Source: Synechococcus sp. M44_DOE_062 (lineage in GTDB: Bacteria > Cyanobacteriota > Cyanobacteriia > Thermostichales > Thermostichaceae). From it: 64,000 bases of DNA. The position numbers and the translations under genes were made by a program. Of this stretch, positions 51,375 through 53,449 are shown in pieces (position 1 is the stretch's first letter; each line of letters starts with the position of its first letter). The stretch is from the NCBI GenBank assembly GCA_015295985.1, contig DVDX01000024.1:1-64000 (forward strand), read 5' to 3'. Below the pieces are notes generated by a model. That model saw nothing but the letters and a program-made list of their open reading frames with translations, ran no database searches and was not told the DNA's origin.

Positions 51375-52361
51375 CTAACGGCGGGCCTGGGCAAAAATGG
51401 CCTGCAAAATCTCGTCGGCCCCCTGCCGTTTTAGCTTTTCTGCCAAAGCTACCCCCACCGCTTCCGGGTCGGCTACGGATCCCGTTTGGCTGTCGCGGAT
51501 GAGCCGCCGGCCATCCAGCTCGGCCACCATACCGGTTAGGTGCAGCTCCTCCCCTTGGACTTGGCTGTGAACGCCAATGGGCACCTGACACCCTCCCTCC
51601 AAAGCCCGCAAGAAGGCTCGCTCGGCCAAACAGCGCGCCGTCGCTTCCGCATCCGCCAAGGGTCGCACCAAATCGAGGATGCGCTCATCCCCCTGCCGGC
51701 ACTCGATTCCCAGGGATCCCTGCCCAACTGCATACAAAGACACGCTGGGATCCAGCACCTCGTGGATCCGGTCGGCTTTGCCCAGGCGCTTCAACCCGGC
51801 CACTGCCAAAATAAGGCCGTCGTACTCTCCCCTCTCCAGCTTGGCCAAGCGGGTGTTGAGGTTGCCCCGCACATCCTTAAACCGTAAGTGGGGAAAGGCA
51901 TGGCGCAGTTGGGCCAGCCGCCGCAGCGATGAAGTGCCAATCACCGTCCCTTCGGGCAAGGTGGCCAGTCGGTAATCCTGGAACTTTTCCCCCACCACCA
52001 AAGCATCCAAGGGATCCTCCCGCCGCGTAATCGCCCCCAACACCAAGCCCTCCGGCAAGCGGGTGGGTAGGTCTTTAAGGCTGTGTACCGCCAAGTCGCT
52101 GCTGCCGTTGAGCAGGCTAACTTCCAATTCCTTGGTAAAGAGACCTTTGTCCCCAATTTTGGCCAGGGCTACATCCAGGATGATGTCTCCTTGGGTGGAA
52201 AGGGTGTTGAGCTCCAGGGGTAATCCCGGATGGTGTTCTTGCAACTGACCCATCACCCACTGGGTCTGCACCAAAGCCAACTCGCTTTTTCGAGAGGCAA
52301 TCCGCACCGGCTCGGTGATCCCAGCAGAGGGCTTGGAAGGGGTCGAGGCCCGTTTGCTCAT
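51375..52361 (-). CDS. hemC: Porphobilinogen deaminase
   Basis: Hydroxymethylbilane synthase joins four porphobilinogens on the way to heme and chlorophyll. The 328-residue protein begins [17 protein letters not shown]. It has [54 protein letters not shown] and, at the dipyrromethane cofactor cysteine, [13 protein letters not shown]. Length and start are normal. It converges with the DUF2157 gene, with 9 bases between stops. Confidence 0.96.
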
Positions 52362-52540
52362 GGCTGCCGCAAAAAAAGGACACCGTCTCTCACGCTAGCT
52401 GAATCTGTGCCAGGGCAAGGCGGCGCCCTTCAAGATCCTTAACCAAAATCGCAGTTTCCCGAAATCAAGACTTTACCAAAAAACTGGGTCTAAAGCCCCG
52501 CCCTGAGGCCTACAGCCCGCTGACGCGACTAGGGCGGCTT

Positions 52541-52823
52541 TGTGTTATATTGTATGCAGCGGTAGGGTAGTCAACCGCTCTAAAAACCCAACAGTCTCGC
52601 GACTGGATTCAACCCAACAAGTTTTGTGGTTGGTGGTTGTTTTTCGCAACGGTACCTTAGGGCATAAGGGAACCGCCTCGCATTCGCGTCAGCGGCGCGG
52701 AGCGCTAGAGGGAACGCCTGGGGAGATAAGCACCGCTGTCGTAGAGGGGCAACCCGACACGGTAAGTGCTGTCGCAGAACCAGGAACAAGAATCCACTGC
52801 CTTTAGGCAGGGGAGTATGTCAA
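52541..52823 (+). mobile_element. IS200/IS605-like remnant with terminal hairpins
   Basis: The 3' end has a hairpin CTGCC-TTTA-GGCAG (52797-52810) followed by GGGAGTATGTCAA, which closely resembles the right end of cyanobacterial IS200/IS605 (tnpB) elements. The 5' end has a second hairpin, AGCGGT / ACCGCT (52558-52563, 52574-52579), after TTATATTG. In between, one frame reads AEPGTRIHCL just before the right-end hairpin, similar to the C-terminus of TnpB proteins, but no full tnpB is present. It looks like a short non-autonomous derivative or decayed copy, possibly still making an omega-like RNA. The family assignment is from motif memory, not a search. Confidence 0.5.
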
Positions 52824-52987
52824 CGTAGGGATCCCAGTCGGTAGGATAAGTAGGTGGATTCTCCGGCTCGGCGGGGGAGAACTCGACCGGTCAATCTCCT
52901 CTTCCCCAATTCCAGAGCTTTTGAGGGAAGCCTTCTACAATGGGCACAAGCCCCTGGTTTGGTTGGTCGTCTGCCTGGATAGGTCTC

Positions 52988-53449
52988 ATGGAAGAAAACA
53001 ACGTCAGCAACGGCACTCAGTTACTGCTCAAGCGCAACATTCCCATCAAGGTGGTGGTCACACCCCTTTGGAAAAAGGAAATGCAGGAGCAATTGGAGCG
53101 GCAGATCGAAGCCACCGATGCTCAGATGCAACAACTGGAGTTTCAGGGCAAGCGGGCTATTGCTGAACTGGAGAAACAGAGTCCCAACCCCAACAGCCCC
53201 CAAGTGCTCCAGCAGGTGGAAGCGGTGAAAAGCCGCGTGAACGAGCAGAAGATCCGGCTCTTGGATCAGAAAAACCAATTGTTGCAGCAGATCAACCAAC
53301 TGACCACCCTGGAGCTCAACCAAGAAGTGCTTCAGGGTAACGTGGAGAGTTTCTTCCGAGTCCAAAAAGGAGACAACCTGATCCAGAAAATGCAGGTCGA
53401 GATCCTCCTGGAAGATGGGGTGATCAAAGAGATTCGTGGCAACCCATGA
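52988..53449 (+). CDS. YlqD family protein
   Basis: This 153-residue protein of unknown function shows an N-terminal beta-strand region (LLLKRNIPIKVVVTPLWK) and a long coiled coil (about 30-120, Gln and Glu rich). The C-terminal strand region QKGDNLIQKMQVEILLEDGVIKEI completes a layout that matches the YlqD family of Firmicutes and cyanobacteria. Start is ATG at 52988. It lies between the IS-like remnant and the GT2 gene. Confidence 0.75.
   Translation: MEENNVSNGTQLLLKRNIPIKVVVTPLWKKEMQEQLERQIEATDAQMQQLEFQGKRAIAELEKQSPNPNSPQVLQQVEAVKSRVNEQKIRLLDQKNQLLQQINQLTTLELNQEVLQGNVESFFRVQKGDNLIQKMQVEILLEDGVIKEIRGNP

Follow-up and report, generated by a model that had tools for sequence, protein, structure and literature searches.

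Among the closest described systems to the element reported here are the PATEs (palindrome-associated transposable elements) of Haloquadratum (PMC3119063), with which it shares, as far as the accessible part of that report describes them, the absence of a transposase, near-terminal palindromes of the IS605 type and the absence of target duplication, as well as a tetra- or pentanucleotide target on the left and, in some cases, tnpB C-terminal sequence. It also resembles the guide RNA of TnpB (omega-RNA, or right-end element RNA, reRNA), for which the available sections on ISDra2 (PMC8612924) and on AmaTnpB and others (PMC10278001) describe a right-end scaffold followed by a guide from the flank, and an insertion motif that is also the target-site motif. 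We analyzed a stretch of 64,000 nucleotides (hereafter, the window) from Synechococcus sp. M44_DOE_062 (assembly GCA_015295985.1, contig DVDX01000024.1, positions 1 to 64,000), in which a 347-bp element without protein genes occupies 52477-52823 on the plus strand. With a probability of about 0.6, we regard it as a PATE-like, non-autonomous element of the IS200/IS605 type with a guide RNA as its sole product, TnpA and TnpB presumably being provided in trans. Its anatomy is directly observed, and expression of the RNA and its use by a nuclease are inferred.

The boundaries of the element were given by its empty sites. In the related genome G004, the window matches ending at 52477 and starting at 52824 join at one base, so that TTTAC/CGCAGGGATCCC in G004 is opposed to TTTAC/element/CGTAGGGATCCC in the window; in two further relatives, G001 and G003, TTTAC lies near the right flank and the element is absent. 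The element is therefore 52477-52823, inserted 3' of the target or transposon-associated-motif-like TTTAC (52472-52476), which is retained in the empty sites of all three relatives. No target duplication was found, one C being ambiguous. Such insertion on the 3' side of a short, unduplicated target is typical of IS200/IS605, and so are subterminal hairpins at both ends (52492-52541 and 52797-52810). The left-end hairpin has the arms AAAGCCCCGCCCT (52492-52504) and AGGGCGGCTTT (52531-52541), and its loop holds a 26-nt palindromic mini-repeat; copies without this mini-repeat still have the hairpin. The right-end hairpin, CTGCC/GGCAG (52797-52801/52806-52810), has pairs that covary in the family and is followed by the right end GGGAGTATGTCAA (52811-52823). 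An initial annotation of this locus had begun the element at 52541 and taken the inverted repeat AGCGGT/ACCGCT for its left-end hairpin. The repeat does exist (52558-52563/52574-52579); however, it is internal and forms the first stem of an RNA pseudoknot, and the copies and the empty site move the left end to 52477, after TTTAC. The right-end hairpin and right end named in that annotation are as it described them, and its assignment to a transposase-less IS200/IS605-like element, with a target motif to be sought in the flank, agrees with the exact empty site, the TTAC and TCAA ends and the family of copies.

The largest open frame on the element strand, 52540-52806 (88 aa), is a relic of a TnpB tail, as had been proposed: it is homologous to the TnpB frame on contig C85 of the same genome, the two having NGTLGHKGTA...GQPDTVSAVAEP.TRI in common. 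The list of open frames contains no TnpA or TnpB gene within the element, which is thus a non-autonomous derivative and not an insertion sequence (IS).

The element is one of a family, with about a dozen related protein-less copies, within its own genome (G000; 2.93 Mb, 90 contigs, the locus being part of contig C10). A 361-bp query gave 47 matches in G000, the best other copy with an E value of 3e-111, which rules out chance hairpins. The IS605 relatives that the initial annotation had called for are present, and the similarity of the right end survives alignment. Among 13 loci aligned at both ends, TTAC precedes the left end of 12, and TCAA, the right cleavage site of the IS608 type, closes the right end of 12. 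TTAC is the target given for IS608 in the available part of a published account (PMC8612924). Eleven of these 13 loci measure 255-412 bp and contain neither tnpB nor tnpA, and the other two (L009 and L010) are tnpB elements of 1.37-1.41 kb. A second, different protein-less element was seen at L019 (G000:C58, about 64440-64740); it has the same left end, terminates in GAGAATGTCAA, and its ends resemble those of a tnpB element on contig C12 (L027). At L018 (G000:C3, about 1460-1510), two tandem right ends lie about 41 bp apart, as if one element had landed beside the end of another.

The stretch between the left end and the scaffold is not tnpB sequence. This leader, carried by twelve loci of G000, has the core AGNGG..RGGTAATCAACCNCTNTAAAAACCY, and its first stem occurs as AGCGG/CCGCT, AGAGG/CCTCT, AGTGG/CCACT or ACAGG/CCTGT. 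The loop sequence GGGT or AGGT pairs with a downstream ACCC or ACCT to form an H-type pseudoknot with an A-rich crossing strand, located in the window at 52558-52589 (stem 52558-52563/52574-52579; GGGT 52565-52568 with ACCC 52586-52589). A second hairpin, CAGTC/GACTG (52592-52605), follows, and all five of its pairs have changed on both sides across the family. RNAalifold recovered both leader stems unaided. Among 17 sequences, 18 cells (one base pair in one sequence) showed a two-sided change against 6.9 in shuffles; among 75 matches (68 distinct rows), the numbers were 139 and 58.6, and 92.6% of the cells were paired compared with 26.7-47.2% in slid controls. The larger alignment covers 74 loci, with a few places present twice (e.g., L111/L146, L114/L160 and L109/L148) and identical rows merged into the 68 distinct ones. 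Since the search model held the two hairpins but not the pseudoknot pairs, the latter provide the less biased test; 93.8% of their cells were paired, and 19 cells had a double change in one pair.

An extended -10 promoter-like motif, TGTTATATT (52543-52551), is conserved in the family. Of 66 distinct rows, 49 have the form TGnTAnnnT starting 15-17 nt before the first stem, whereas each of the two control intervals has it in a single row of the 66; by this position the transcript should start with, or close to, the first base of the pseudoknot. Given the promoter-like motif, the 5' pseudoknot and the true left end, the element is more than a deletion remnant. An origin of the leader from a tnpB 5' region was rejected: in L009 and L010 the left end leads directly into tnpB, with a different sequence, and the leader model (R1) found no leader at the 12 tnpB-linked loci checked (L009, L010, L083, L093, L096, L097, L173, L179, L180, L181, the minus-strand copy of L182, and L188). 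The leader match at L182 belongs to a neighboring orphan element, and the tnpB link of L180, judged by eye, is a short remnant resembling tnpB that follows an HNH frame. L180 itself (G288:C1:685091-686243), where a tnpB-type right end stands behind the HNH-bearing frame and the remnant, is possibly a tnpB gene interrupted by a group II intron (by eye). Directly upstream of the leader, L114, L120 and L123 each have a small divergent frame, alike in the three loci and ribbon-helix-helix-like by eye, and in genome G046 the repeated unit reaches into the side upstream of the leader.

The initial annotation had also raised the possibility of an orphan omega-RNA, and a complete predicted scaffold with covarying helices was indeed found at 52645-52823, the relic of the tnpB 3' end included. 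In an alignment of 25 hand-picked scaffolds (four tnpB-linked, 15 long form, see below), 23 of 25 pairs had at least one compensatory change. The model built from it (R2), which consists mostly of long-form rows and favors the long form in its scores, matched all 14 genomes tried; it scored the window scaffold at 126 bits, this sequence being a member of its own alignment. One alignment and one model thus span the window scaffold and tnpB-linked RNAs, and over 135 columns the window scaffold has 93% identity to the scaffolds of L009 and L010. Each copy runs across the exact junction of right end and guide into its own flank. The presumed guide of the window copy, 52824-52843, has its counterpart adjoining TTTAC in the G004 empty site, with two mismatches in the first 20 nt; the guide role of this flank would follow from TnpB biology as set out in the accessible part of PMC8612924. 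Two further scaffold matches, L174 (G177:C1:39169-40304, 102 bits) and L186 (G023:C1:31350-32486, 123 bits), have neither a leader nor an upstream tnpB frame, and so appear to be a third kind of orphan.

Several observations weigh against a working guide-RNA gene in G000. Both of its tnpB genes with a matching scaffold look broken, that on C85 having an open stretch of 347 aa preceded by stops or frame breaks and that on C26 being divided into several frames. The three tnpA loci, too, are short or interrupted, although an assembly of 90 contigs could miss intact copies. The copies have diverged to 71-83% identity, so that activity was not recent, and in some of them mini-repeats lie inside the leader or scaffold. 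Because the partner genes look broken, the window copy may no longer work and may be a relic of a working family. The relatives have a normal-length tnpA, and in G004 a 421-aa tnpB frame adjoins the best-scoring scaffold of that genome. A rival explanation is that of an inert PATE, a deletion derivative in which terminal tnpB sequence was kept since TnpA needs the ends, and whose RNA has no function. The state of the partner genes would fit this explanation, and so would the truncated or rearranged copies L007, L012 and L017. However, TnpA requires the end hairpins only, whereas the folds of the leader and of the entire scaffold, neither of which is end sequence, are preserved by compensatory changes across genera and the promoter-like motif is retained, and we therefore consider an inert element unlikely.

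The leader is not confined to one genus. With strict filters and E≤0.001, the leader model found it in 33 of 388 genomes of the class (28 of 334 high-quality genomes, 21 of 160 genera), a lower bound since copies missed by the filters exist. A convincing right end lies 229-392 nt downstream in 60 of 75 leader matches, a distance too short for tnpB; among the other 15, ten had no right end by pattern and five (L091, L115, L128, L159 and L167) were set aside as unconvincing. The repeated unit within genomes is about 350-560 bp. Most of the more distant genomes have a long form, in which a further domain separates the leader from the scaffold. This domain covaries as well: in 28 nuclease-less elements (26 of the 36 listed rows, one phage copy and one plasmid copy), 48 of 74 predicted pairs had two-sided changes and 94.8% of the cells were paired. 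No plasmid match was obtained with the window element as query, and an exact-pattern scan of viral contigs, with a pattern stricter than the family, gave 0 matches. Such relatives in many cyanobacteria and in some phages (see below) suggest a family of mobile guide-RNA genes, with transposase and nuclease alike borrowed.

The two forms differ in their relation to tnpB. Among the 11 short-form scaffolds compared (from G000, G004, G139 and G067), nine have a tnpB-linked counterpart with 84-93% identity, in most cases from the same genus or genome, and the remaining two, L088 and L154, reach 77% and 70%; the copies of G023 are intermediate (70-71%). The long-form scaffolds are 72-90% identical to the closest long form from a different genome or phage, whereas their identity to the tnpB-linked scaffolds compared is no more than 59-68%. 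Five long-form genomes have 145 TnpB matches; in these genomes, none of 39 R2 hits of at least 105 bits was tnpB-linked, compared with eight of 20 at 95-105 bits (59 hits of at least 95 bits in all). By these comparisons the long form looks like an orphan lineage. The missing linkage and low identity, together with the conservation of the leader and the further long-form domain away from tnpB, could also mean that the RNA is functional but is no TnpB guide, the leader being regulatory, ligand-binding or active in transposition itself and the scaffold re-used. We judge this improbable: the 3' domain retains the fold of the TnpB scaffold and the exact right-end/guide junction, and the short form of the window is 93% identical to local tnpB scaffolds. 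The presence of the same leader on two scaffold classes argues for a module with a value of its own. Tentatively, and with less confidence than in the guide-RNA reading, leader and scaffold may be taken as a separate lineage of mobile noncoding-RNA genes of cyanobacteria and phages. The long form would then be a parasite of parasites with its own pseudoknot and folded domain, using any compatible TnpA, and TnpB or another protein in trans, and programming the cutting of alleles or rival phages that lack it; the short form of the window would be a leader recombined onto a scaffold matching the local tnpB.

The long form also occurs in Nodularia phages, where it follows the ribonucleotide reductase gene of kac65v151, kac65v161, kac65v162 and kac68v162 (L189, MK605242 119557-119993). 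The exact empty site is present in phages 2AV2 and kac68v161, as ATTAT/TATAAGG compared with ATTAT/element/TATAAGG; the comparison of carriers and relatives also involves the records KU230356 and MK605245. This shows a recent insertion of a protein-less element and provides a natural pair of alleles; the guide of the phage element would be predicted to match the empty-site relatives. The carrier MK605242 has five TnpB matches and a tnpA of its own, a frame of 138 aa. When two of its tnpB-linked scaffolds were compared with the orphans, the highest identities were 58% and 64%, and a pairing of the long form with the phage's own tnpB scaffolds is unsupported by these values.

Collectively, the guide-RNA reading can be cast as a cycle. 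TnpA made elsewhere would move the element, and the promoter-like motif in the left end would start an RNA at the pseudoknot. In the available part of one study, TnpB cuts the 5' side of omega-RNA from its own mRNA (PMC10278001); a self-standing guide gene would need another means to define and protect its 5' end, which TnpB would otherwise process, and for this the pseudoknot is the candidate. The transcript would pass the right end into the flank, the sequence after TCAA would serve as a guide matching the empty site, and the scaffold would be bound by TnpB made elsewhere. Such supply in trans is possible since TnpB of ISDra2 and its RNA formed an active complex from separate plasmids, as the accessible part of that study states (PMC8612924). 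Alleles with TTTAC and the guide sequence, arising from excision or present in sister chromosomes, would then be cut by TnpB, and repair would restore the element. TnpB is thought to retain its own transposon in the same manner, by cutting empty sites. If protein-less elements use dedicated guide genes, guide RNAs would be selectable as independent selfish elements, with bearing on the separation of guide loci from nucleases en route to CRISPR-Cas12. As a compact and conserved RNA structure, the leader lends itself to a direct test of whether it stabilizes a guide supplied in trans, and the phage copies and their empty-site relatives offer a natural test of RNA-guided phage competition.

On one side of the insertion is hemC (51375-52361, minus strand; a name based on its translation), and on the other a frame of 169 aa at 52940. 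The copies are distinguished by nested palindromic mini-repeats, about 22-30 nt long and of a GGCCTACGGCCCGCT..CGCGA type and a CGCGTCAGCGGCGCGGAGCGCT type, which resemble the very small mobile repeats of cyanobacteria. They lie in the left-end loop, the crossing strand of the pseudoknot and the scaffold loops (window, 52505-52530 and about 52680-52707; L002, L003, L005, L007, L008, L012, L015 and L016).

The element did not correspond to a known Rfam RNA: no covariance model of Rfam 15, HEARO and group I introns included, matched window positions 52400-53000 at E≤1. Across 20 loci, the only Rfam 15 matches were two tRNAs, a further match overlapping one of these tRNAs, and a neighboring CRISPR repeat. 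The last refers to L121 (G002:C16), where CRISPR repeats (CRISPR-DR58, 1878-1987) lie about 260 bp upstream of the leader element. HEARO, IS110 bridge RNA, group I introns and preQ1-type riboswitches were weighed by their generally known features and the missing Rfam match only, and set aside. We found no published description of the pseudoknot leader, the long-form domain or their spread, although literature beyond open access may hold one.

Guide RNAs encoded away from their nuclease are already known, and the stand-alone IscB omega-RNAs are an example; these differ, as generally described, in having the guide at the other end and another scaffold. RAGATH-18, the reRNA of IS607 TnpB, is likewise a structured RNA that guides TnpB, and 36% of RAGATH-18 RNAs do not adjoin an IS607 TnpB, according to the accessible part of PMC11061315; however, it belongs to IS607, whereas the element here is of the IS200/IS605 type and had no Rfam match. 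TnpB omega-RNA is normally cut from tnpB mRNA, as the available text of PMC10278001 describes, whereas the RNA here would come from a protein-less gene with a promoter-like motif and a 5' domain. The ends CAAAAAACTGG...TATGTCAA have no terminal inverted repeats by eye, and with no target duplication the element is not a miniature inverted-repeat transposable element in the strict sense. It is transposase-free and has near-terminal palindromes, which, together with the absence of duplication and of terminal inverted repeats, agrees with the description of a PATE. The available part of the PATE report describes no conserved RNA (PMC3119063), whereas the element of the window combines a pseudoknot leader, a promoter-like motif and a complete scaffold, in a family that extends over many genera.
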